DNA of 64,000 bases from Bacteroidales bacterium (GCA_021740905.1 JAIOYV010000025.1:1-64000), one strand, 5' to 3'; shown: positions 20,730 through 35,283, counted from the stretch's first letter. Notes: generated from the letters alone by a model not told the origin. Translations and numbers: made by a program.

Positions 20730-21497
20730 ATGGAATTTAAAAATCTAAAACTCGAAGAAAAGGACAACATCTTGTTTGTGACCATCAGTCGCCCTGAAGC
20801 GATGAATGCCCTAAACACGCGCTTCTTCCAGGAAATGGACGAGGTGGTTGCCCATTATGCCAACAAGGAAAACCTACGGGCAATGATTATCACCGGCGAA
20901 GGGAAAGCCTTTGTGGCCGGTGCCGACATTGCCGAAATGGTAAACAAAAACTCTGTGGAAGGAACTGAATTTTCCCTATTAGGGCAAAACACTTTTTCCA
21001 GTCTTGGGAAACTGGAAATCCCAGTCATTGCTGCCATAAATGGATTTGCTCTCGGTGGCGGACTTGAACTGGCCATGGCTTGCGATTTCAGGATTGCCAG
21101 CACCAAGGCAAAGTTTGGGCAGCCTGAAGTCAACCTCGGTTTGACACCCGGTTATGCCGGCACACAACGCCTGCCACGCTTGGTAGGGTTGGCCGATGCC
21201 CTGTTTCTTTTACTTACTGCCGAAATGATTGATGCACCAACAGCCCTGCGTATCGGGTTAGTACAAAAGGTAGTCGAACCCGAAGAGCTGATGACAGAAG
21301 TAATTCGGATTGCGACATTGATTGCCGGAAAAGGTCCTGAGGCAATAAAAAAAGTAAAGTTTGTAACTCGTCAGGGTATGTTGACTGATTTTGATTCAGG
21401 CAGTAGATTAGAGGCAGAACAGTTTGGGTCGCTGTTTGGCAATGAAGGAACCGAAGGGATGAAAGCCTTTTTGGAAAAACGCAAACCGGTTTGGTAA
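20730..21497 (+). CDS. enoyl-CoA hydratase (crotonase family)
   Basis: Hydrates trans-2-enoyl-CoA, probably short chain. 255 residues, typical length. The oxyanion-hole region AFVAGADIAEM and the crotonase signature INGFALGGGLELAMACDFRI are intact. PEVNLGLTPGYAGTQRLPRLVG supplies the acid-base Glu region. It is the first of three genes whose products cover hydration, 3-hydroxyacyl dehydrogenation and thiolysis (or the reverse, condensation direction). Soluble. Confidence 0.9.
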   Translation: MEFKNLKLEEKDNILFVTISRPEAMNALNTRFFQEMDEVVAHYANKENLRAMIITGEGKAFVAGADIAEMVNKNSVEGTEFSLLGQNTFSSLGKLEIPVIAAINGFALGGGLELAMACDFRIASTKAKFGQPEVNLGLTPGYAGTQRLPRLVGLADALFLLLTAEMIDAPTALRIGLVQKVVEPEELMTEVIRIATLIAGKGPEAIKKVKFVTRQGMLTDFDSGSRLEAEQFGSLFGNEGTEGMKAFLEKRKPVW

Positions 21498-21623
21498 TTG
21501 AAAAGTGAGAGAGAAATTAGGTAATTATGAAATTAAGGGTCAGTCTATTCTTTTTGCCTTAATTACTAAATTATCTATTTACCTAATTACATAAAATAAT
21601 ATAAACTACATAACTAAAAGAAT

Positions 21624-22961
21624 ATGGATTACATTAATAAACTTGAAAAGGTTTCTGTACTCGGAGCTGCCGGGAAAATGGGAAGTGGCATATTGCTTCT
21701 TACGGCGGTCGAAATGGCCGACCAGGCCCTGAAATCAGAAAACAAAGACAAAAGCTTTACGCTGAACGCCATTGATGTGTCGAACGATGCGCTGGGCGGC
21801 TTGATGCGCTACTTGAAAGTGCAGGTGCAAAAACTGGCCGAAAAGAAAATGGTGGCCCTGCGCGGCATGTATGCCGACAGGAATGACTTGATCGAAAACG
21901 GCGAAATCATCGACCAATACGTGCTGGATGTGATGACTTATGTGAGGCCAACCACAGCACTTGAAGCGGCCTACAATTCTACCCTCGTGTTCGAGGCGGT
22001 GAGCGAAAACAAGGACTTGAAAAACAAGTTGCTTTCGCAAATTGATAAAAATAGTAGCAACAAGCCCTGGTTCCTCACGAACACTTCGTCTGTTCCGATA
22101 CATGAACTTGAAAAAGGGGCTGACCTTAAAGGGCGGATCGTGGGCTTCCATTTCTACAACCCACCTGCCGTACAAAAGCTGGTCGAGTTGATCGTAACCG
22201 ATGCCACTGCTGCCGACCTGAAGGACTTTGCCATGACGTATGCGAAAAACCTGCGCAAGATTATCGTACCATCGAACGATTTCGCAGGCTTTATCGGAAA
22301 CGGTCATTTTATGCGTGATGCCTTGCATGGGATTCATACCGTTGAAAAGCTAGCCAAAGAGAACTCTTTTGTGGAAGCCGTGTACATGGTCAACAAAGTG
22401 AGCCAGGACTACCTGGTGCGTCCAATGGGTATTTTTCAATTGATCGACTATGTGGGGGTAGATGTGGTGAAGTTTATTATGAATGTAATGAACCCTTACC
22501 TAAAAGATGAAGACCTCCATAGCGACCTTCTGGATAAATATTTTGAGCTGGGCGTAAAGGGTGGACAGTTTTCGAGTGGGGCACAAAAAGATGGCTTCCT
22601 GAAATATGAGAAAGGCAGGGTTTCCGGCATTTACGATCCTGATAAAAAGGATTATGTGGCTGTTGCCGATATTCAGGAAGCTTGCGACAAGAAACTTGGA
22701 GACCTTCCAAAGAGTTGCGTTGCCTGGAAATCAATCATCGGGAAAAAGGACAGGAGCAAGGAGTTTACGGCACTATTTGGCGATCTTAAAAATATGGACA
22801 CCTTGGGCGCAAAATTGGCAATGGAATATGGTGCACGGTCGAACGCCATTGGTAAAAAACTGGTTGCCGACAATGTGGCCCATTCCGAAGCCGATGTAAA
22901 CACCGTAATGTTGACCGGTTTCTTCCATGCGTATGGCCCGATTAACGAATATTTTGTGTAA
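21624..22961 (+). CDS. 3-hydroxyacyl-CoA dehydrogenase family protein
   Basis: 445 residues. NAD-binding Rossmann motif VLGAAGKMGSG (about residues 12-22), then VFEAVSENKDLKNKLL and the family signature around LTNTSSVPIHEL and RIVGFHFYNPPAVQKLVEL, with the catalytic His in the latter. It is longer than the roughly 285-residue single-domain enzymes: a second C-terminal helical domain is present, as in duplicated or bacterial long forms. It should oxidise 3-hydroxyacyl-CoA to 3-ketoacyl-CoA, the step between its two neighbours. The gap to the crotonase gene is 126 bases; the thiolase gene follows 19 bases after. Confidence 0.87.
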   Translation: MDYINKLEKVSVLGAAGKMGSGILLLTAVEMADQALKSENKDKSFTLNAIDVSNDALGGLMRYLKVQVQKLAEKKMVALRGMYADRNDLIENGEIIDQYVLDVMTYVRPTTALEAAYNSTLVFEAVSENKDLKNKLLSQIDKNSSNKPWFLTNTSSVPIHELEKGADLKGRIVGFHFYNPPAVQKLVELIVTDATAADLKDFAMTYAKNLRKIIVPSNDFAGFIGNGHFMRDALHGIHTVEKLAKENSFVEAVYMVNKVSQDYLVRPMGIFQLIDYVGVDVVKFIMNVMNPYLKDEDLHSDLLDKYFELGVKGGQFSSGAQKDGFLKYEKGRVSGIYDPDKKDYVAVADIQEACDKKLGDLPKSCVAWKSIIGKKDRSKEFTALFGDLKNMDTLGAKLAMEYGARSNAIGKKLVADNVAHSEADVNTVMLTGFFHAYGPINEYFV

Positions 22962-22980
22962 CCCGCTAAAATCAGAAAAA

Positions 22981-24222
22981 ATGAAACTAAGAAGAAAAGT
23001 ATATATGACAGCCGGCTATAATACCATTTCGCTCGGTACTGGCCGCAAAGAATTCAACCCTAAAAAAGAACGCCCCGGATTGGAGCATTACCTGAAAGAA
23101 GCAGGACAGGGAACCCTAACGCAAATCGGTGGCGCCGACAATGTGGACGAAGGCGTGGTAGGCAATTTCATGGCCTCACGGTTCAACAAGCAGGCTCATC
23201 TTGGTGCTTTCATGCCCATGATCGACGCAAAACTGATGTACAAACCATCCATCCGTACAGAGGGAGCCTGTGCATCGGGCGGATTGGCGCTAATCTCAGG
23301 GATTAAGTCAATTTTAGCCGAAACCGCCGAGGTGGTGCTGTCGGTGGGGGTTGAAGTTCAGAATACCCAAAAGGCCATATATGGAGCCGACGTATTGGCT
23401 GGTGCAGGCTGGTTTCAGAAACGAAAAGATGGACATGCCTATTTCTTCCCGGGTCAGTTTAGCGACCGTGCTGGGGCTTATTATGAAAAGTATGGCAAAG
23501 ACTACACCCGGAAAGGCCTGGCCAAATGGTTTGCTAACGCGATGGACAATGCGCGTTTATGCGATACGGCACAAGAGCATCACAACACTCACCCAAATCC
23601 AATAGAACTTGGTATGATGGAACCTAACGGGAAAGTATTTACCGATCACCTGAATGTTTTCGATTGCTCAAAAGTTTCTGACGGTGCCTCGGCCATTGCA
23701 ATTATGTCGGAAGATGGTTTGAAGCGTTGCGGCATTGCTAAAAAAGATGCTGTTGAAGTGATAGGATTAGGCCATGCCGTTGGAGATATTACTGAGGATC
23801 CCAAAGACCTCACTCGTCTTGATACCATCGAAAAAGCGATTCAATTGGCTTTCGAATCAGCAGGAATTACTAAAGATGACCTTGCTACCATTGAGGTTCA
23901 CGATTGTTTTACCATTGCTGGTATCCTGGCCACCGAAGCCCTCGGATTTGCAGAGCGCGGCAAAGGGGCGCAATTTGTGGCTGATGGAAACACTGCCCGC
24001 GATGGTAAAATCCCCATAAACACCACAGGTGGACTTATTGGCTGGGGACACCCAACCGGAGCCACAGGCGTTCACCAGGCGGTAACTATTTGGGAACAAC
24101 TAACCGGAAGAGCCGGGAAAGCCCAGATTGAAATCCCTGCAAACCGACCTTATGGCATGACCATCAATATGGGTGGGGATGATAAGACTGTGGTGGCGAT
24201 TGTCTACAAACAAGGAGAGTAA
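22981..24222 (+). CDS. thiolase family protein (acetyl-CoA acyltransferase)
   Basis: 413 residues from the ATG at 22981 (MKLRRKVYMTAGY), chosen over an in-frame start that overlaps the dehydrogenase. The nucleophilic Cys is C97 in RTEGACASGGLAL. HDCFTIAGILATEALG and the GHP motif in TTGGLIGWGHPTGATGVHQ follow. The arrangement and the NMGGDDKTVVAIV ending resemble SCP-x-like/archaeal thiolases more than the classical tetrameric FadA type, so whether it acts in thiolysis or condensation is open. Last gene of the acyl-CoA operon. Confidence 0.87.
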   Translation: MKLRRKVYMTAGYNTISLGTGRKEFNPKKERPGLEHYLKEAGQGTLTQIGGADNVDEGVVGNFMASRFNKQAHLGAFMPMIDAKLMYKPSIRTEGACASGGLALISGIKSILAETAEVVLSVGVEVQNTQKAIYGADVLAGAGWFQKRKDGHAYFFPGQFSDRAGAYYEKYGKDYTRKGLAKWFANAMDNARLCDTAQEHHNTHPNPIELGMMEPNGKVFTDHLNVFDCSKVSDGASAIAIMSEDGLKRCGIAKKDAVEVIGLGHAVGDITEDPKDLTRLDTIEKAIQLAFESAGITKDDLATIEVHDCFTIAGILATEALGFAERGKGAQFVADGNTARDGKIPINTTGGLIGWGHPTGATGVHQAVTIWEQLTGRAGKAQIEIPANRPYGMTINMGGDDKTVVAIVYKQGE

Positions 24223-25553: not shown

Positions 25554-25574
25554 TGTGTTGTATAATTCAACACA
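25554..25574. promoter_or_regulatory. short inverted repeat TGTGTTG/CAACACA
   Basis: Perfect 7-base arms around TATAATT, between the two CTGRTATTCAG copies. It could be an operator; no direct evidence. Confidence 0.35.
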
Positions 25575-25606
25575 TGTCAATTTATTCAACATACCGATAA
25601 ACTGCG

Positions 25607-25617: not shown

Positions 25618-25738
25618 TATGATACGTCGTTATTGTCGATGCACTGTAACTATTCTCTACACTTCACCTTGTTTATTTTTACAGCATGCTTTGTTGTAAC
25701 AATCTGTTTTGCTTGTACTTATATATGTGTTTTCTCTT

Positions 25739-25754
25739 TGGCATCAGAGTTGAA
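25739..25754 (+). promoter_or_regulatory. sigma-54-like -24/-12 element
   Basis: TGGCAT-N5-TTGAA against the consensus TGGCAC-N5-TTGCW. Spacing is exact and the -24 GG is present, but the -12 GC reads GA, so the match is imperfect. It lies 50-70 bases before the possible starts of the operon's first gene, and a sigma-54 activator is encoded downstream in the same locus. Confidence 0.4.
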
Positions 25755-25825
25755 AAACGATATCTTGTTATTGAAAACAAAATAAATGGACACAAAACAA
25801 ATTTATGAACTTAATAATTACGGCG

Positions 25826-27529
25826 ATGAAAACTAAAGTATTTGCATTTGTCGGTTTCCTTTTATCCTTATGCTTAATCACATACGGGAAGGAAGAAACC
25901 AAGACCGACCTTTCACAGGCCGACACACTTCGCGTCTCCTGCACTCAGGAGATGTTTGATCTCACCTCAAAATGGGTGAATGAGTTTGAGGGATTAAATC
26001 CGGACATTCCTATTATCGTGACTCCGGTTCCTGAAAATTCAATGACTAAAACACTAAAGGGCGGATCCGATCTCGGAATTATCAATCAGGCCAATAGCAT
26101 TGCATTAAATGACCAGGCATTATGGAGTGTAGTGATTGGTCGGGACATTCTGGTGCCTGTTATGAATGCATCGAATCCGTTCTTAAATGAAATTCTCCAA
26201 CAAGGGATTTCTTCTAATGATTTTGCACAGATTATCAGAAATCCTGAAATGAGAAAGTGGGGTACACTTCTTAATAATGATCAAAATGCACCTGTTCACT
26301 ATTATTTGGTGAACGATGCGTCCATCTCATCGGGGTTGTTGAAATTTCTGAATATCAGCGCAACAAACCTGAATGACGTGGAAGTGAAAAGCGAAAAGGA
26401 ATTGATAACCTTAGTTCAGAATGACCCATACGCAATTGGATTTTGCAAATTGACTTCAATTGTTGAACCCAATTCTCAAAATCTGGTGAGCGACATTCAG
26501 TTGGTTCCGATTGATAATAACGGGAATGGGAAAATAGATTTCATCGAAAATATCTATGGCAATGTAGCGGATTTTCAAAGAGGTGTCTGGATTGGGAAGT
26601 ACCCAAAATCTTTGTATCAAAATATCTATTCTATCGCCTCGGGGAATCCAACAGGCACAATAGAATTGGCGTTTTTAACATGGGTAATTACGGATGGGCA
26701 GCAATTAATGAAGCAATCTGGATATTCTGAGCTGGTATTCAACGAGCGTCAAAGTAAAATAGACAAGTTCATGAATGTCTTAAAACAGGAAGCACCAGGT
26801 TCACAAATTGCTAATATCGATTATGTTTTTCCTTCAACAACAGAGGCATTGATACTAATTTTTATTGTACTTGGGGCGGCTGCCTTTATTTTGATGATCC
26901 GATCTCAGAACAGGAAAGTGGTTCAATCAAGCGAACCGATTTCAGGCTCTCCTTTGCTATTTAGTGCTGATTCGGTTACCGCACCCAAAGGATTGTTTTA
27001 CGATAAGTCGCATACATGGGTTTTTATGAATGAGGAGGGGCGGGTAAAAGTCGGTATTGATGATTTCCTACAACACCTTACTGGGCCAATTACACGGATA
27101 AAAATGAAAAATGCCGGAGAAAAAATCAAAAAAGGAGATCCGATCCTATCTATTGTGCAAAATGGCAAGCACTTAACTGTATATGCACCCATTTCAGGAA
27201 CAATAAAAGAACAAAATGAACAACTCAACTCAAATTCCTTGATAATTAACAACTCTCCTTACAAGGACGGTTGGGTGTATGTTATAGATCCTGTAAACTG
27301 GATAAACGAGATCCGGTTTTTAATTATGGAGAAAAAATATAAAGAATGGATAAAAGGCGAGTTTTCACGGTTCAAAGATTTTTTGTCGCTAGCCCTTAAG
27401 CCTGAAATGCCGAATTATGCTTACAGCACTCTACAAGAAGGAGGTGAAATTAAAAATGGTATCCTGGAAGAATTAGGCCCTGAAATTTGGGAAGATTTTC
27501 AGACCCATTTTATCGACATACCTCAATAG
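25826..27529 (+). CDS. periplasmic-binding-protein/GcvH-like fusion
   Basis: 567 residues from ATG 25826 (MKTKVFAFVGFLLSLCL, a signal peptide); an in-frame ATG lies 7 codons upstream. Residues about 30-330 resemble a PstS/phosphate-type solute-binding protein (TLRVSCTQEMFDLTSKWVNE, GVWIGKYPKSLYQNIYSIAS). A transmembrane helix follows (about 339-359). After it a GcvH/barrel-sandwich domain (about 390-490) shows FYDKSHTWVFMNEEGRVKVG, KIKKGDPILSI, GKHLTVYAPISGTI and DGWVYVI. The hairpin Lys (K448) is one position later than the lipoyl-Lys in canonical GcvH. A C-terminal extension with LQEGGE and EIWEDFQ is shared with the paralogue at 29718. This places a carrier-like domain on the cytoplasmic side and a binding domain in the periplasm. 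Function unknown; first gene of the operon. Confidence 0.75.
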   Translation: MKTKVFAFVGFLLSLCLITYGKEETKTDLSQADTLRVSCTQEMFDLTSKWVNEFEGLNPDIPIIVTPVPENSMTKTLKGGSDLGIINQANSIALNDQALWSVVIGRDILVPVMNASNPFLNEILQQGISSNDFAQIIRNPEMRKWGTLLNNDQNAPVHYYLVNDASISSGLLKFLNISATNLNDVEVKSEKELITLVQNDPYAIGFCKLTSIVEPNSQNLVSDIQLVPIDNNGNGKIDFIENIYGNVADFQRGVWIGKYPKSLYQNIYSIASGNPTGTIELAFLTWVITDGQQLMKQSGYSELVFNERQSKIDKFMNVLKQEAPGSQIANIDYVFPSTTEALILIFIVLGAAAFILMIRSQNRKVVQSSEPISGSPLLFSADSVTAPKGLFYDKSHTWVFMNEEGRVKVGIDDFLQHLTGPITRIKMKNAGEKIKKGDPILSIVQNGKHLTVYAPISGTIKEQNEQLNSNSLIINNSPYKDGWVYVIDPVNWINEIRFLIMEKKYKEWIKGEFSRFKDFLSLALKPEMPNYAYSTLQEGGEIKNGILEELGPEIWEDFQTHFIDIPQ

Positions 27530-27587
27530 TGCCTGATTCTGATTTCAATAGTTTTCAAAATGATACTTAAAATTAAAATCGAAACCA

Positions 27588-28451
27588 ATGGGAACAAATC
27601 GAAGAAACTTTTTAAAACTACTCGGTACAGCTGGTTTTACAATGGCTGTGGGGAAAAGCTTTGGTGCCTTGGCCAAGAAAAAAAGCCCTGTCGAATTTTA
27701 TGGGATTTTATACGACTCCACACTTTGTATCGGTTGCCAGGCCTGCGAATATGCGTGTGCGGAGGAATATGGGCTTCAAGAGCCGCAAGACGAGCCTCAA
27801 ATCGGAGTTGTTCGCAAAACAGATGAAACAAGACGACTGGTCATTAACTCTTATGATACTTCAAAAGGAGAGCAGTATATCAGGGTTGCCTGCAATCATT
27901 GCAACCAACCTGCTTGCGCATCGGCCTGTTTAACAAAAGCTATGTTGAAAACTGAAGAAGGTCCAGTTATTTGGCGCGAAGATAAGTGCATGGGCTGTAG
28001 GTATTGTATGATATCCTGTCCGTTTGATATTCCAAAATTTGAATACCACAGCGCGAATCCAAAAATCCAGAAATGCAGGATGTGCTACGAACGGATTCAG
28101 GATGGAAAAATCCCTGCCTGCGTTGAAACGTGCAGTGAGGGTGCTTTGATTTTTGGAAAAAGAAGTGAATTGCTCGAAATCGCGAAACAAAGGATTTATG
28201 CCGAACCCGAAAAATATAACCATGAAATTTATGGTGAGACCGAAGCCGGGGGAACAAGTGTCTTATATCTCGCTTCTGTACCCTTTCATGAATTGGGGTT
28301 CAATACTAAAATTCAAAAAACTTCCTACCCTGAATTGACCAAAGGATTTTTGTATAGTGTCCCGGCAATTTTTGTGTTATGGCCTGCTTTATTGTTAGGC
28401 TTACGTCAGGCAACTAAGGATAATCATATTAAAGAAATAGAAAATGAGTAA
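27588..28451 (+). CDS. HybA-like periplasmic four-cluster ferredoxin
   Basis: 287 residues. The N-terminus NRRNFLKLLGTAGFTMAVG is a twin-arginine signal, so it is exported folded. Sixteen cysteines in four groups (C47/50/53/57, C102/105/110/114, C134/137/140/144, C163/166/178/182) bind four [4Fe-4S] clusters in the DMSO-reductase-B/HybA pattern. A C-terminal hydrophobic helix (about 257-277) anchors it, as in HybA. HybA relays electrons between a hydrogenase and the quinone-reactive HybB, but no hydrogenase large or small subunit is in the window. It overlaps the next gene by 8 bases, confirming co-transcription. Confidence 0.85.
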   Translation: MGTNRRNFLKLLGTAGFTMAVGKSFGALAKKKSPVEFYGILYDSTLCIGCQACEYACAEEYGLQEPQDEPQIGVVRKTDETRRLVINSYDTSKGEQYIRVACNHCNQPACASACLTKAMLKTEEGPVIWREDKCMGCRYCMISCPFDIPKFEYHSANPKIQKCRMCYERIQDGKIPACVETCSEGALIFGKRSELLEIAKQRIYAEPEKYNHEIYGETEAGGTSVLYLASVPFHELGFNTKIQKTSYPELTKGFLYSVPAIFVLWPALLLGLRQATKDNHIKEIENE

Positions 28452-29685
28452 TACAGATATAACATTAGCACGGGATAATTATGGGAGTTCCATCTGGAGC
28501 TTTTTGATAAAAGAATTCAAACCCAAAAATAAGTTTTTTACTCCTTTTAATATTATCTCGATACCGATAATGCTCTTGGGCCTTGGGATTATTGTAATCC
28601 GTTTCTGGAAAGGAATTGGCTCGGTAACCAACCTTACCCAGGAGGTTCCCTGGGGGTTATGGATTGGTTTTGATGTGGTTACAGGTGTTGCCTTTGCTGG
28701 TGGTGCCTACGTAATTACATTTATGGTGTATATCCTGAATATGCGAAATTTTCGCTCAATAGTAAGGGTAACAGTTCTGAATGGCTTTCTGGCCTACATC
28801 TTTTATGCAGGGGCGCTGTTACTCGATCTGGGCAGGCCCTGGAATGTTATCAACCCTATAATTGGCAATGGGTTTGGCACCAGCTCGGTGTTGTTTTTGG
28901 TAGCCTGGCACTTTCTGCTTTATATCCTTGCTATGTTGATTGAGTTTTCGCCAGTAGTGGCCGAATGGCTTGGGGCAAGGCGTGCCCGTTTTATTTTGTC
29001 GGGGATGACCGTGGGCGCCGTTATTTTTGGGATCACCTTATCCACTTTGCACCAGTCAGGTTTGGGCGCATTATACTTGATGGCGAAGGACAAAATTCAT
29101 CCTTTATGGTATTCCGAATTTATCCCTATATTGTTTTTTGTGTCAAGCATATTTGCAGGGCTTTCGATGGTGATATTTGAAGGTTCGATAAGCAACAAAG
29201 TGTTTTTTAGGCAAATTGATAAAAAAAACCACACGCAGCACAATACCATCATTCATAGTTTATCAAAGATTTGTGCAGGGGCCATGTTTGCTTATTTATT
29301 CCTTCAGGTTTTGGTGTTCGTACATGGCAAACACTGGGACTTGCTGAACAGTCCGATGGGCTTCTGGTATCTTACAGAAATGATAGGCTTTGTTCTGGTT
29401 CCAATGGTCTTATTTTTCTTAAGCTACAGGAATACCAATATTTTAATGATAAAAGTGGCCGCCATAATTACCATGCTCGGAATCATTATCAACAGGCTTA
29501 ATATTTCGGTGATAGGGTTTAAATGGGATGCTGCTTCGCACTATGTTCCGTCCTGGATGGAAATTGTGGTGACCCTTGCGGTGATTTTTACTGAAATATG
29601 GATTTTCCGTTGGATCATAAACCGGATGCCTGTTTTGCGTGCATCCCCATCCTGGGTAAAGGATAAAATACCTGATCAACAATAA
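28444..29685 (+). CDS. HybB/NrfD-family integral membrane subunit
   Basis: 413 residues with about ten transmembrane helices and the NrfD/PsrC/HybB look (TQEVPWGLWIGFDVVTGVAF, TLSTLHQSGLGALYLMA, KDKIHPLWYSEFIPILFF). Such proteins exchange electrons with menaquinone and, in some complexes, couple this to proton translocation. It has no heme motifs of its own and depends on the preceding ferredoxin. Start ATG overlaps the HybA-like stop. The usual third partner (molybdoenzyme, hydrogenase or cytochrome) is replaced here by two GcvH-like membrane proteins. Confidence 0.87.
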   Translation: MSNTDITLARDNYGSSIWSFLIKEFKPKNKFFTPFNIISIPIMLLGLGIIVIRFWKGIGSVTNLTQEVPWGLWIGFDVVTGVAFAGGAYVITFMVYILNMRNFRSIVRVTVLNGFLAYIFYAGALLLDLGRPWNVINPIIGNGFGTSSVLFLVAWHFLLYILAMLIEFSPVVAEWLGARRARFILSGMTVGAVIFGITLSTLHQSGLGALYLMAKDKIHPLWYSEFIPILFFVSSIFAGLSMVIFEGSISNKVFFRQIDKKNHTQHNTIIHSLSKICAGAMFAYLFLQVLVFVHGKHWDLLNSPMGFWYLTEMIGFVLVPMVLFFLSYRNTNILMIKVAAIITMLGIIINRLNISVIGFKWDAASHYVPSWMEIVVTLAVIFTEIWIFRWIINRMPVLRASPSWVKDKIPDQQ

Positions 29686-29717
29686 AAAAGAGTTTTAATT
29701 GTCTAAATTTTAATACT

Positions 29718-30437
29718 ATGGAAGCTTTAAATAGTTATTACGATATTTTTGACACGAAAGGAATTGAGTACATCATTATCATCGCTTTCCTTTTGTTGCT
29801 GATCCCCTTCTGGATTAAGCTGAACCAATCGAAAATGGTAGAAAAAATAAGCCAAAAACTGGAAATACTTACGGCTGCAATCCTAAACATCCCAAAAGGG
29901 ATATTCTTCTGTAAAAACCATACCTGGGCACATCTCGAAAAATCGGGGCTGGCAAAAGTTGGCCTCGACGATTTTGTTTTAAAAACAGTAGGCAAGATTC
30001 ATCTAAAAACTGTCCGAAAGCAGGGGGATAAAATTAGGAAAGGCGATTTGATAGGAGAAATAATCCAAAACAATAAAACCCTCAAAGTCTTCTCGCCTAT
30101 TACGGGAGAGATCAGGCAGCTTAATCCGATAATCGACGAGGGGGCTGAAATCCTAAACGAAAACAGCTACGAAAAATACTGGATGTATGACATTGAACCA
30201 TTCGATTGGCAGGCCGAGACCCAGACGTATTATATGGCCAACGCTGCCATGGCCTGGTCGATGAAAGAATTGCAAAAGCTAAAGGATTTTCTAATGGTAT
30301 CGCTGGCAAAAAATTCGCCCGGGCAATCTTACTTTGCCTTGCAGGAGGGTGGTGAATTACGGATAAATCCGCTTTCGGATTTGCAGGAGGAGATCTGGAA
30401 TGACTTTCAGGATGAATTTTTAAATAATGTTTCCTGA
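29718..30437 (+). CDS. membrane-anchored GcvH-like protein
   Basis: 239 residues. A transmembrane helix (about 16-33) is followed by a linker and a GcvH-like barrel-sandwich domain (about 60-160: GIFFCKNHTWAHLEKSG, AKVGLDDFVLKTVGKI, KIRKGDLIGEI, NKTLKVFSPITGEI, YWMYDIEPFDW). K120 is the hairpin Lys, displaced by one residue from the canonical lipoylation site, exactly as in the fusion at 25826. The C-terminal extension (LQEGGE, EIWNDFQ) is also shared, so the two are paralogues and this one lacks the binding-protein half. Last gene of the operon, closed by the terminator at 30444. Confidence 0.75.
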   Translation: MEALNSYYDIFDTKGIEYIIIIAFLLLLIPFWIKLNQSKMVEKISQKLEILTAAILNIPKGIFFCKNHTWAHLEKSGLAKVGLDDFVLKTVGKIHLKTVRKQGDKIRKGDLIGEIIQNNKTLKVFSPITGEIRQLNPIIDEGAEILNENSYEKYWMYDIEPFDWQAETQTYYMANAAMAWSMKELQKLKDFLMVSLAKNSPGQSYFALQEGGELRINPLSDLQEEIWNDFQDEFLNNVS

Positions 30438-30443
30438 TTTTAT

Positions 30444-30472
30444 AAAACCGGCGAAAAAGCCGGTTTTTTTTT
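30444..30472 (+). terminator. intrinsic terminator of the redox operon
   Basis: Arms AAAACCGGC and GCCGGTTTT around GAAAAA, then a run of T. It separates the four structural genes from the sensor kinase gene. Confidence 0.85.
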
Positions 30473-30534: not shown

Positions 30535-32220
30535 ATGACCGACGATGGTAAATCAAAACAGAAAAAATGGAGAATGATTTGTTTCTTAAGAAAATATTCA
30601 AAACTACAGACATCAATTTATTGTCAGGTAGTTTATATTATCACCCTTTTGTCCCTGTTTCTATATGTCTCGTTTGGTGTAATTTTCCGGTCGGTAAACG
30701 AGCGATATTTAAATACGGTTATTCAACAAAGTGGGAACAATATTGGTTCGATTGTAGAAGGGGCTTTGTATCAACACATGCTTGAGAATGACAATACAGC
30801 CTTACAGAATATGCTCGACATTATTAATACCCTGCCAAGCATTCAGGATGTAAACATGTACGATGATAAGGACAGTCTGATTTATTCTTCTCTCCCAGCC
30901 GACACCAATATCCGGAGCAATCCAAATTGTAAGGAATGTCATAGTGATATACAAACCATGTTTCCTAAAAAAGAGAAGTCCTTCAAAATAGTCAGCATAG
31001 ATAGCCATTGCGAAATGAGCCCAAAGGACTATGATTCACGCTTTTTGTTGATCAAATCGCCTATCCTGAACGAAATGTCTTGCTATACGGCTAAATGTCA
31101 CGCGCATGATAGAAGTGAAGAGGTGCTTGGCTCGTTTGTAATAAGGATACCTTTGGAACAACTTGACAATGCCCTGTACGAGTCGTCAACTGATTTTTTT
31201 CTGTTGGCTTCTTTAACAACCCTATTGCTTTTGGGTTTCTTAATAATTTTTACCCGAAAAAATATTAAAGCCCCATTAAATGAGATCATTAAGGCAAGCG
31301 AGGCAGTTTCGAGAGGGGATAAAAGCAAAAGACTCGAAATAAAACCCAATCAGCTAAGTGATATGAGATTGGTTTCCACAGCTTTTAACGAAATGCTTGA
31401 CAATTTGCAACTGGCCACCAACGAATTGCAGAATTGGTCGCAACAGCTTGAATACAAAGTTCAGAAAAAGTCGGAGGAACTGCTGGAAATGCAACATGAA
31501 CTAATCCGGGTTGAACGGATCGCATCCCTGGGTAAATTGTCCGCTTCGGTAGCTCATGAAATCAATAATCCGTTATCCGGGATATTAACGTATACAAAAT
31601 TGGTTAACAAACAAATAACCAAACTCGATTTGAAGAAACCCTCTGTCGATTCAATTCTAAAATACCTTAAAGTGATTGAAGAAGAAACAAAACGATGTGG
31701 CGACATTGTTAAGGGATTATTAGATTTTTCGAGAAAAGACCAGGAAGATTTTGAATCCAATAACCTGCATCGGATTTTAGATGAGGTTTTTACTTTGATG
31801 AACCATCAGATGAAAATTGCCAACATCATTTTTATCAAAGAATTTAATGCTGAATTCGATACTATCTCTTGCAACAAAAATCAAATCAAACAGGCTTGTG
31901 TTGCTATCCTAATGAATTCCCTCGAAGCGGTGACCGATAATGGTGAAATTATTGTGAGAACCAGCAATCCTGGCAATATCAATATAAAACTTGAGATAAT
32001 AGATAATGGCGTAGGGATAGCATCCAGTGACCTTCCCCACGTTTTTGAGCCATTTTTCTCCGCCAAGCAAAAGGCAAGTGGAATTGGATTGGGTTTGGCA
32101 ATCGTTCATGGAATTGTACAAAGCCACAATGGAAAAATCGAAGTCGAATCGGATCCAGACAAAGGCACAAAAATATCCATAGTTTTACCTCTGACTAAAG
32201 ATCAAAACAAAATAATATGA
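30535..32220 (+). CDS. sensor histidine kinase with two c-type heme motifs
   Basis: 561 residues. TM1 is about 30-50 and TM2 about 220-240, enclosing a periplasmic sensor domain with two heme attachment motifs: CKECH (C132-H136, CX2CH) and CYTAKCH (C183-H189, CX4CH). A HAMP domain follows (about 241-293), then the H-box SVAHEINNPLSG (phospho-acceptor H341), N-box MNSLEAV (N461), DNGVGI and GIGLGLAIV. The kinase probably senses redox state or a small ligand through periplasmic heme and phosphorylates the regulator that starts inside its stop codon (ATGA overlap). Heme attachment needs a cytochrome c maturation system elsewhere in the genome. Confidence 0.85.
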   Translation: MTDDGKSKQKKWRMICFLRKYSKLQTSIYCQVVYIITLLSLFLYVSFGVIFRSVNERYLNTVIQQSGNNIGSIVEGALYQHMLENDNTALQNMLDIINTLPSIQDVNMYDDKDSLIYSSLPADTNIRSNPNCKECHSDIQTMFPKKEKSFKIVSIDSHCEMSPKDYDSRFLLIKSPILNEMSCYTAKCHAHDRSEEVLGSFVIRIPLEQLDNALYESSTDFFLLASLTTLLLLGFLIIFTRKNIKAPLNEIIKASEAVSRGDKSKRLEIKPNQLSDMRLVSTAFNEMLDNLQLATNELQNWSQQLEYKVQKKSEELLEMQHELIRVERIASLGKLSASVAHEINNPLSGILTYTKLVNKQITKLDLKKPSVDSILKYLKVIEEETKRCGDIVKGLLDFSRKDQEDFESNNLHRILDEVFTLMNHQMKIANIIFIKEFNAEFDTISCNKNQIKQACVAILMNSLEAVTDNGEIIVRTSNPGNINIKLEIIDNGVGIASSDLPHVFEPFFSAKQKASGIGLGLAIVHGIVQSHNGKIEVESDPDKGTKISIVLPLTKDQNKII

Positions 32221-33557
32221 CAACAGATATTTCGATATTAATTGTTGACGATGAAGAATCGGTCAGGAACAGCCTACACGACTGGTTCATGGAGGACGGT
32301 TATCAAGTTGCCTGCGCTGAAAATGCCAAGGAAGCACTTTCGATCCTTGAATCTAAAAATTATGACATCATATTGGCTGATATTAAAATGCCGGGGATGG
32401 ATGGGATGGAAATGCACCGGCGGATACGATCTTTGAATAAAGACTCCATTGTGATTATTATGACAGCGTTTGCTTCCGTTTCAACAGCCGTGCAAGCCTT
32501 AAAAGACGGTGCTTACGATTACATTACCAAGCCCTTCGACCCGGACGACCTATCGCACCTGATCCGAAATGCAGCAAACCAGATTTCATTAAAAGCCGAA
32601 AATGAGGCGTTACGGAACCGGGTTGTTTCCCTTGAGGATGTGGAAGATCTTATCGGAAACAGCGAGGCGATGAAGAGAGTATTGAAGGAGGTTGAAAGAG
32701 TGACCCAATCAAGTTCGCCGGTAATAATTACAGGCGAAAGTGGGACTGGCAAAGAGTTGATTGCAAGAGCAATTCATTCCAATTCGCCCAGAAAATTTTT
32801 TCCGATGGTAAGTGTCCATTGTGGCGCCCTGTCCGAAAGCTTGTTGGAGAGTGAATTGTTTGGACATGAAAAAGGAGCCTTTACTGGAGCTATGTACAAT
32901 CGAAAAGGACGCTTCGAAATGGCCGATGGGGGGTCTATTTTTCTGGATGAGATCGCCACAATTTCATCCAAGATGCAAATTGAACTGTTGAGGGTACTCG
33001 AAACAAAAACCTTTATGAGAGTCGGGGGCAACAAGGAGATCAGCTCAGATTTTAGGGTTATCTGTGCCACAAACAGGGACCTAAAACAAATGGTTCAAAT
33101 AGGAACCTTTCGCGAAGACCTCTTCTATAGGTTGAATGTGGTTAATATTACAATTCCACCTTTGCGGGAAAGAATTGAGGATATTCCACTGCTTGTAGAT
33201 TACTTTATCAATAAATACTGTAAATCCATGAGCCGGGAAGTAATTTCTGTCGATCAGGCCGTGTTGAAGCGTTTGGCTGAATATGACTTTCCGGGCAATG
33301 TACGCGAACTCGAAAACATGATTGAGCGCGCTATTGTGGTTGGAAATTACAAAGAGATCAGGCTTAAAGATCTTCCGTTTGAGAGGGATTTGGTAAGTAG
33401 TTCTGTCGAAAGCTTGAGCGATCTGGAAAAAAGGCACATAATCCAAATTCTTGAAAAATACAACTGGAATATCTCAAGGTCGGCCAAGGCACTGAAAGTG
33501 GACCGGGTAACACTTTACAATAAGATTAAAAAATATGATCTTGCCCCAGCAAAATAG
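32217..33557 (+). CDS. NtrC-family sigma-54 response regulator
   Basis: 446 residues. The receiver domain (1-120) has DDEE, phospho-acceptor D55 (ILADIKMPG) and the conserved Lys in YDYITKPFDP. The AAA+ domain has Walker A GESGTGKE and the sigma-54-contacting loop in EKGAFTGAMYNRKGRFE. Walker B is GGSIFLDEI. A Fis-type helix-turn-helix ends the protein (NISRSAKALKVDRVTLYNKI). All activator elements are intact. The likely target is the upstream operon with the sigma-54-like element at 25739; this is inferred from location. Confidence 0.93.
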   Translation: MTTDISILIVDDEESVRNSLHDWFMEDGYQVACAENAKEALSILESKNYDIILADIKMPGMDGMEMHRRIRSLNKDSIVIIMTAFASVSTAVQALKDGAYDYITKPFDPDDLSHLIRNAANQISLKAENEALRNRVVSLEDVEDLIGNSEAMKRVLKEVERVTQSSSPVIITGESGTGKELIARAIHSNSPRKFFPMVSVHCGALSESLLESELFGHEKGAFTGAMYNRKGRFEMADGGSIFLDEIATISSKMQIELLRVLETKTFMRVGGNKEISSDFRVICATNRDLKQMVQIGTFREDLFYRLNVVNITIPPLRERIEDIPLLVDYFINKYCKSMSREVISVDQAVLKRLAEYDFPGNVRELENMIERAIVVGNYKEIRLKDLPFERDLVSSSVESLSDLEKRHIIQILEKYNWNISRSAKALKVDRVTLYNKIKKYDLAPAK

Positions 33558-33639: not shown

Positions 33640-34173
33640 ATGGAAAAAGATTCCATTTTATTGATTACACACGGACACTTCGAGAAAGAATTTCTTGATA
33701 GAACGGCCATTCTTGTGGCTCGTGAATTTCGGTTACCTATTACTATTAAAGAAAACCATTCCGATCTGAGTGAATTTTACGATCCAACAAGAAGACAATA
33801 CGATGGACACAAGCTATTGCAGGATATTGATGCCAGGTATTCATCTTCATCGATGATTAGGGTTGGACTTTTTCGGGTAGATTTATTTATTCCTATCCTC
33901 ACCTTTATTTTTGGCCAGGCAGCTTTTAATGGCAGCACAGGCGTTGCATCATTGTACCGATTACGAAATGAGCAATATGGCATTAAGAAAAATGAAGCCT
34001 TATTACTGGAGCGGTTCAGCAAAGTAATTATTCACGAAATAGGGCATGCCATGGGGTTGATCCATTGCCATATTCCCGGATGTGTAATGCAGCCAAGTAC
34101 TTATGTGGAAGATATTGATCAAAAAAATCATGAATTTTGCCCAAATTGCCGTCATAAAATAGACCTATTTTAA
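33640..34173 (+). CDS. archaemetzincin-type zinc metalloprotease
   Basis: 177 residues. The extended zinc motif HEIGHAMGLIHCHIPGCVM (H132, E133, H136, H142, C143, C148, M150) and the downstream CPNC (C167, C170) are diagnostic of archaemetzincins, which carry a second structural zinc in the cysteine set. Length is close to the family norm. No signal peptide, so cytoplasmic. Substrates are unknown in prokaryotes. It follows the response regulator by 82 bases and precedes the flavin reductase by 9, so it may be co-transcribed with the latter. Confidence 0.88.
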   Translation: MEKDSILLITHGHFEKEFLDRTAILVAREFRLPITIKENHSDLSEFYDPTRRQYDGHKLLQDIDARYSSSSMIRVGLFRVDLFIPILTFIFGQAAFNGSTGVASLYRLRNEQYGIKKNEALLLERFSKVIIHEIGHAMGLIHCHIPGCVMQPSTYVEDIDQKNHEFCPNCRHKIDLF

Positions 34174-34182
34174 GCATAAACG

Positions 34183-35283
34183 ATGAATACAAAATACCCA
34201 ATCCTCAAATCAATCCAATTTGGCCCTTACGAATTGCCCAACCGGGTAGCAATGGCCCCATTGACACGCCGAAGGGCAGGTGCAGGTGGCGTGCCCACAG
34301 CCATGAATGCCCTGTATTATGCACAACGCGCGAGTGCTGGTTTAATAATGGCCGAGGCAAGTCCTATTTCGCAACAAGCGACAGGTTACCCCGATGTGCC
34401 GGGAATTTACACCCAAAAACAAATCGAGGGCTGGAAATTAGTGACAGATGCGGTGCATGAAAAAGGAGGAAGGATTTTTCTTCAGCTCTGGCATGTTGGA
34501 CGCTTCTCGCACAACGATTTTCAACCCGGAGGAAAACCTCCGGTTGCTCCTTCTGCAGTCCCTTTTCGTGGAAGACAAATTAATACCGGAAAAAACGGAT
34601 ATCAGGAAACCCCAATTCCCCTAGCCCTGACTAAACCAGAAATCAAATCTATTATAGGCGATTATTGGCAAGCTGCAAAGAATGCTATGGAAGCCGGATT
34701 CGATGGTGTCGAGCTTCATGCTGCTAATGGCTATTTGATTGATCAATTCTTGAACGATATATCCAATCACCGCACCGATGAATATGGTGGCAGCTTTGGC
34801 AATCGATACCGGTTTTTGGCAGAAGTACTGGATACCCTTTGCTCGGTTTGGGGAAGTGATAGGGTGGGAGTAAGGTTGGCTCCCGGAGGAGGTAGTCTGG
34901 GAATGCGCGACAGCGATCCCCTTGGTTTGTTTGCTTATGTGATTTCTCGATTGAATGAATTCAACTTGGCCTATCTCAGCATCCTTCAACAATGGTTCGA
35001 TGTAGAAAACTATCCCCAAGAACTAAAAAACCTGACCCCTTATTTTCGAAAATTCTACGATGGTTTGCTTATCACCAATCATGGTTTCGATTTCGCGCAA
35101 GCCAATAAGATGATAGAAGAAGGCTATGCCGACATGGTGGCCTTTGGAAAGTGGTATATATCCAATCCTGATTTGGTAGAACGATTTGCCATAGGAGCAC
35201 CAATTACTGAACCCGACCCGGATACTTTTTATGGTGGAAATGAAACCGGATATACGGATTATCCGATATGGGATCGAACGTAA
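34183..35283 (+). CDS. old yellow enzyme family ene-reductase (NemA-like)
   Basis: 366 residues, the classical OYE size. FMN and substrate residues are visible: MAPLTRRRA at the N-terminus, QLWHVGRFSH (Q101, H104) and the substrate-binding pair H179 and N182 with proton donor Y184 in ELHAANGYLIDQFLND. The enzyme reduces activated C=C bonds with NAD(P)H. The final GYTDYP box is typical of NemA/OPR-type members. Nine bases after the archaemetzincin gene. Confidence 0.92.
   Translation: MNTKYPILKSIQFGPYELPNRVAMAPLTRRRAGAGGVPTAMNALYYAQRASAGLIMAEASPISQQATGYPDVPGIYTQKQIEGWKLVTDAVHEKGGRIFLQLWHVGRFSHNDFQPGGKPPVAPSAVPFRGRQINTGKNGYQETPIPLALTKPEIKSIIGDYWQAAKNAMEAGFDGVELHAANGYLIDQFLNDISNHRTDEYGGSFGNRYRFLAEVLDTLCSVWGSDRVGVRLAPGGGSLGMRDSDPLGLFAYVISRLNEFNLAYLSILQQWFDVENYPQELKNLTPYFRKFYDGLLITNHGFDFAQANKMIEEGYADMVAFGKWYISNPDLVERFAIGAPITEPDPDTFYGGNETGYTDYPIWDRT

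Follow-up and report, generated by a model that had tools for sequence, protein, structure and literature searches.

Electron-transfer modules of the Hmc/HybAB type, known from sulphate reducers and enterobacteria, pair a Tat-exported protein carrying four iron-sulphur clusters with an NrfD-like membrane protein. Two-component systems of the NtrC family combine a HisKA/HATPase kinase with a GAFTGA-bearing AAA+ regulator, a -24/-12 promoter and dyad enhancers. Periplasmic sensors of the sCache_haem type (DUF3365/Tll0287; GSU0582/GSU0935; PMC12889525) join a Cache-like domain to a c-haem motif, and a 2026 preprint describes single-haem sCache_haem domains fused to signalling modules as NO sensors with tight NO binding (PMC12889525). 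Archaemetzincins (peptidase M54) are recognised by an HExxHxxGxxHC zinc site, and the biological role of the family has been described as little known (PMC3427221). Counterparts of each of these are found, together with proteins of the GcvH fold, in a conserved seven-gene operon carried by a stretch of 64,000 nucleotides from a Bacteroidales bacterium (GCA_021740905.1 JAIOYV010000025.1:1-64000, hereafter the window). A previous sequence-only reading of the window recognised no characterised complex of this make-up, and likewise our search of the literature, limited to open-licence papers, found no description of the operon.

Gene content and putative regulation of the operon

The sequence-only reading described a tight operon of four genes. 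Examination with Pfam and NCBIfam profiles confirmed the four families, encoded by intact ORFs in a tight run from 25826 to 30437. These genes are the front half of the operon; the end proposed at 30437 did not hold, since the unit runs on through a kinase, a sigma-54 response regulator and an archaemetzincin, a rare metalloprotease. The features are as follows.

25555..25573, no strand assigned: candidate enhancer (UAS) for the regulator, perfect dyad GTGTTG-N7-CAACAC
25574-25592 and 25644-25662: weaker copies of the dyad, at spacings of 19 and 89, similar in several relatives
25739..25754, + strand: candidate sigma-54 (-24/-12) promoter, TGGCAT-N5-TTGAA
25826..27529, + strand: fusion of a solute-binding protein (SBP), a TM segment and a GcvH-like domain (PF01597, 3.4e-26; PF12849, 4.5e-6); the ORF opens at 25805
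27588..28451, + strand: HmcB/HybA-like four-[4Fe-4S] subunit with Tat signal and C-terminal TM segment (NF045715, 4.9e-93)
28444..29685, + strand: HmcC/HybB/NrfD-like membrane subunit (NF045714, 9.1e-118; PF03916, 1.2e-10)
29718..30437, + strand: TM-anchored GcvH-like protein (PF01597, 2.8e-17) with the non-canonical lipoyl site QNNK
30444..30467, + strand: intrinsic terminator, hairpin and T-run
30535..32220, + strand: sensor histidine kinase (HAMP, HisKA, HATPase) whose periplasmic domain carries haem motifs
30928-30942, + strand: haem motif CxxCH in the periplasmic domain of the kinase
31081-31101, + strand: haem motif CX4CH in the same domain
32217..33557, + strand: NtrC-family response regulator (receiver, sigma-54 AAA+ with GAFTGA, Fis HTH)
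33640..34173, + strand: archaemetzincin, peptidase M54 (PF07998, 1.3e-22), with an intact zinc site, HEIGHAMGLIHC

The ATG at 25826, already proposed as the start of the first gene, is the likely one because the family alignment begins at Met8-Lys9, which corresponds to this codon. About 30 genomes of the order share this gene arrangement, as do members of other classes, in which the families named by the sequence-only reading are again found together, so it is not due to chance. As for the terminator taken to close the operon, the hairpin and T-run at 30444 are real, but a strict match is found in only 4 of 29 related gaps; in this genome it may partly separate the two halves of the operon. 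No hydrogenase or molybdoenzyme subunit is adjacent, as had been stated. When flanking genes from more than 50 loci were clustered, no further widely shared family emerged that might be a hidden catalytic subunit, and PADLOC gave no sign of a known defence system. Genes for an enoyl-CoA hydratase, a 3-hydroxyacyl-CoA dehydrogenase and a thiolase lie just upstream in the window (20730-24222), and a gene of the Old-yellow-enzyme family of oxidoreductases lies directly 3' of the archaemetzincin gene (34183-35283); neither group is kept beside the operons of relatives.

All sequence elements of an NtrC/sigma-54 circuit are present, namely a HisKA/HATPase kinase, a regulator with receiver, GAFTGA-bearing AAA+ and HTH domains, a -24/-12-type promoter, dyads, and RpoN encoded in the genome. 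The pattern TGG[CT]A-N6-TTG occurs upstream of 29 of 39 first-gene candidates (a few of them misassigned second genes or fragments) and of none of the 25 second GcvH genes, against a mean of 0.2 in shuffled sequences. The dyad is conserved upstream in relatives, where it is often repeated at intervals of about 70 and 89 bases, and the copy in the window is the only perfect one in the whole genome. Genome-wide, sites with one mismatch show no clear excess (16, compared with 13 for a reversed-pattern control), and those inspected lack the conserved arrangement. The conserved promoter and tandem dyads, with no further strong dyad in the genome, suggest autoregulation as the simplest reading, while other targets with poorer sites are possible, this view of the regulon being based on one simple dyad pattern.

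Predicted properties of the encoded proteins

The GcvH-like domains align with solved GcvH over their full length and without gaps, and their profile match to PF01597 indicates the same fold. The column of the lipoyl lysine is occupied by Gly (63), Asp (13) or Asn (10) in 86 of 99 domains, the two domains of the window having Gly and Asn. Lysine is found there in six of the 99, never in an ExxK context, and the lipoyl lysine at the hairpin tip that characterises lipoylated GcvH is absent from the proteins of the window. A lysine lies one residue past the canonical position in 68 domains, and Arg, Gly, Asn or Glu takes its place in 29. A canonical GcvH with the motif EAVK is encoded separately in the same genome (L025:6893-7282). 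Positive charges are more numerous after the TM segment than before it (3.6 and 1.2 in the SBP type, 3.9 and 1.0 in the TM type) and fusions to receivers must be cytoplasmic, so the GcvH domain is predicted to face the cytoplasm. Since HmcB is predicted to be periplasmic, a direct role of the GcvH-like domains in electron exchange with it is unlikely. Elsewhere, such domains occur in fusions with receiver domains and, in one case, with cytochrome b561; these fusions and the gene context suggest that the GcvH-fold proteins act as cytoplasmic adaptors. If so, 'gcvH' is a misleading annotation for many genes of these genomes.

The first protein is predicted to consist of a periplasmic PstS-like domain, one TM segment (about residues 347-365) and a cytoplasmic GcvH-like domain (398-517), and it ends in a conserved C-terminal DGG region; its structure prediction, from a shallow 2-sequence alignment limited to the window and L004, gave a pLDDT of 33, too low for use. 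When aligned with nine PstS-like relatives, among them the PstS of the same genome (followed by two genes resembling PstC and PstA), the SBP domain is seen to be homologous to PstS and to have lost the anion-binding motifs of these relatives (SGAFALYP, RSDACGA and similar). Phosphate sensing by this domain was rejected as unlikely on that basis, although some ligand is possible. The domain also keeps an EF-hand-like loop, PIDNNGNGKIDFIE (window 26507-26548), which is found in PstS-like relatives as well.

Both haem motifs of the kinase are near-invariant (52-54 of 54 relatives), and Met82 and His191 (window numbering) are invariant in the 54; the motifs suggest two haems per sensor domain. Genes for c-type cytochrome assembly are present in the genome. 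A profile of the sensor has a weak match in 3b42, a c-haem Cache domain (E 7e-5); PF21563 matches 28 of 46 members (best 1.4e-5) and PF11845 matches 8 of 46 weakly (best 0.04). Structure prediction of the domain gave a pLDDT of 31, again too low for use, with a shallow 3-sequence alignment from the same two sources. Two tandem kinase genes, both with two haem motifs, were observed at L004:12683-16084, L058:13512-16851 and L060:13707-17007. In the archaemetzincin, a PF07998 protein, the HExxHxxGxxHC motif of M54 peptidases is shared by 37 of 40 relatives.

The HmcB-like protein has exactly 16 cysteines in four clusters and the Tat motif RRNF, and the 16 columns are kept in at least 95% of 45 relatives. 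Together with the NrfD-like membrane subunit, HmcC, which is the presumed menaquinone site, it has the make-up of Hmc/HybAB/NrfD modules. No catalytic or multihaem partner was found in the operons of the order except for a 7-haem cytochrome at L059, where HmcBC is absent.

Distribution of core and accessory genes

A survey of 247 genomes of the window's own order identified the first GcvH-like gene in 35, in the form of an SBP fusion or of TM-GcvH. The kinase is present in 33 of these and nowhere else in the 247 (Fisher 5e-39), and the archaemetzincin is present in 33 of the 35 and in 6 of the 212 others (Fisher 2e-32). HmcC was found in 30 genomes, 28 times inside the operon, that is in 28 of the 35 (Fisher 4e-28); all these p values overstate independence, as the surveyed genomes are related. 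The two HmcC outside the operon have a formate dehydrogenase catalytic subunit in their operons, as assigned from protein sequences. In the operons inspected, a catalytic subunit is absent, in line with the sequence-only reading. In six genomes the GcvH-like gene is accompanied by those for kinase, regulator and protease, yet no HmcC match exists anywhere in the genome, which makes the quinone module an accessory rather than the core; one of the six (L059) has a 7-haem cytochrome and, next to it, a cytochrome b561-GcvH fusion in the place of HmcC. The link of the GcvH-like gene to kinase, regulator and protease is thus tighter than its link to HmcBC. By its distribution, the GcvH-like gene belongs with the kinase, the redox module being exchangeable.

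In a phylum sample of 395 genomes, GcvH-like relatives were found in 52, mostly of other classes, where two types of operon can be distinguished: (i) TM-GcvH, HmcB, HmcC, a second GcvH-like protein (often Cys-rich), a haem-motif kinase and an NtrC regulator, in many cases with archaemetzincin, and (ii) HmcB, HmcC, a 13-haem cytochrome, a kinase of the same kind and two receiver-GcvH fusions. A search of plasmids returned HybB-like HmcC relatives only, and a contig scan with the fusion as query returned one relative, the peptide patterns probably being too specific.

Several loci deserve mention in their own right. Both operon types lie back to back in one genome at L031:1-14047 and at L038:100-14655. 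At L103 (G517:C16) the operon is apparently decaying, with a truncated regulator, no kinase or HmcC, and archaemetzincin kept. On the opposite strand beside the operon of the NIOZ-UU40 MAG (L004:3819-6964) are genes for a Rieske-like protein and for a cytochrome b with a fused C-terminal 11-haem portion. At L039:54-9458 and L042:10491-19999, the receiver-GcvH type adjoins a run of cytochromes, which carry as many as 19 CxxCH motifs, and of 420-aa proteins without haem, an arrangement that resembles an outer-membrane electron conduit.

Possible functions and relation to known systems

A redox-responsive control system is more likely than a new respiratory enzyme, and we lean towards reading the operon as a self-regulated two-component signalling module that responds to redox conditions through an exchangeable quinone-linked input. 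HmcC and HmcB would connect the menaquinone pool with the periplasm by electron transfer and would thereby set, or report, the redox state that the haems of the kinase read. The GcvH-fold adaptors, devoid of a lipoyl site, would tie the redox input to kinase and receivers, and the SBP fusion would link a periplasmic ligand to them as well. The phosphorylated regulator would then bind the dyads and turn on the same operon, including the protease, archaemetzincin being the likely effector. In this scheme we infer the signal, the direction of electron flow and the contact between GcvH and kinase. The receiver-GcvH fusions and the fact that the kinase never occurs without a GcvH-like gene in 247 genomes argue for it; the presence of HmcBC inside 28 of 35 operons counts against it, as this would also fit an effector complex under the control of a kinase. 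A more specific proposal, made tentatively, is that the H-protein fold was recruited without its lipoyl group as a membrane-tethered adaptor connecting exchangeable quinone-linked modules (HmcBC, cytochrome b561 with the 7-haem cytochrome, or HmcBC with the 13-haem cytochrome) to the phosphorelay of a dihaem kinase.

Such an effector complex is the main rival of the signalling module. HmcBC and two GcvH-fold scaffolds would form an electron-disposal complex or a menaquinol:cytochrome oxidoreductase, with GcvH domains as structural as the barrel-sandwich domains of RnfC/NqrA, and the kinase-regulator pair would answer a periplasmic redox signal and merely control expression. Retention of all 16 cysteines of HmcB, the frequency of HmcBC in the operons, weak matches to the barrel-sandwich domains of NqrA/RnfC and the multihaem cytochromes that adjoin the complex in other classes agree with this, as does the apparent autoregulation, by which the target is the operon itself. 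However, six genomes retain everything but HmcBC, GcvH is fused to receivers, and the HmcC relatives outside the operon accompany formate dehydrogenase catalytic subunits, none of which is present here; we regard an effector complex as possible but rather doubtful. It is less probable still that the kinase is a sensor of NO, or of another haem ligand, of the sCache_haem type and that the operon answers nitrosative or oxidant stress, with HmcBC and archaemetzincin serving to repair damage or dispose of it. By analogy with the reported single-haem relative, a signalling protein that binds NO tightly (PMC12889525), NO rather than redox state could be what the kinase senses, and the 3b42 and PF21563 matches point the same way. 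Against this stand the two haem motifs instead of one, the weakness of the PF11845 match and the lack of NO reductase or Nrf in the operons, while the association with quinone and cytochrome modules speaks for redox sensing.

Finally, the sequence-only reading suggested that the GcvH-like domains may carry a dithiol or other group that exchanges electrons with the quinone pool, here taken as lipoamide dithiols acting through HmcBC. In pyruvate dehydrogenase lipoyl domains, a shift of the lysine by one residue abolishes lipoylation. The PF01597 match and the frequent lysine next to the canonical position would suit a dithiol carrier, but the alignment to solved GcvH is ungapped at the lipoyl site, the canonical column is mostly Gly, Asp or Asn, the neighbouring lysine is itself replaced in 29 domains, and GcvH and HmcB are predicted to lie on opposite sides of the membrane. 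The dithiol proposal is accordingly very improbable.

The operon offers a testable context for three things lacking a clear role: GcvH-like paralogs annotated as glycine cleavage proteins, HmcBC modules without an enzyme, and bacterial archaemetzincins. If the signalling module is right, anaerobic Bacteroidota and their relatives would sense the state of their quinone pool or of the periplasm by means of a haem kinase connected to an electron-transfer module of its own; if the adaptor proposal also holds, such systems would constitute a new class of respiratory-state sensor in which archaemetzincin is the effector.

Compared with NtrC-family systems, whose kinase, regulator, promoter and enhancers it shares, the operon has quinone-linked redox subunits, GcvH-fold proteins and an archaemetzincin alongside. 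HmcB and HmcC are the best NCBIfam matches of its redox subunits (4.9e-93 and 9.1e-118), although the bit scores fall under the equivalog cut-offs (311.6/420 and 393.8/550); unlike Hmc/HybAB modules, these subunits lack a catalytic or HmcA partner in the order surveyed and are linked to GcvH-like proteins and a kinase. The kinase shares a Cache-like periplasmic sensor and a c-haem motif with sCache_haem proteins, but it matches PF11845 weakly and has CX4CH as a near-invariant second motif. The archaemetzincin has the zinc site of its family and stands out as a bacterial protein associated with a two-component operon. The same domain as in canonical GcvH is present over its full length, whereas the lipoyl site is lost, a C-terminal DGG region is added, and the protein is anchored in the membrane or fused to an SBP, a receiver or a cytochrome b.
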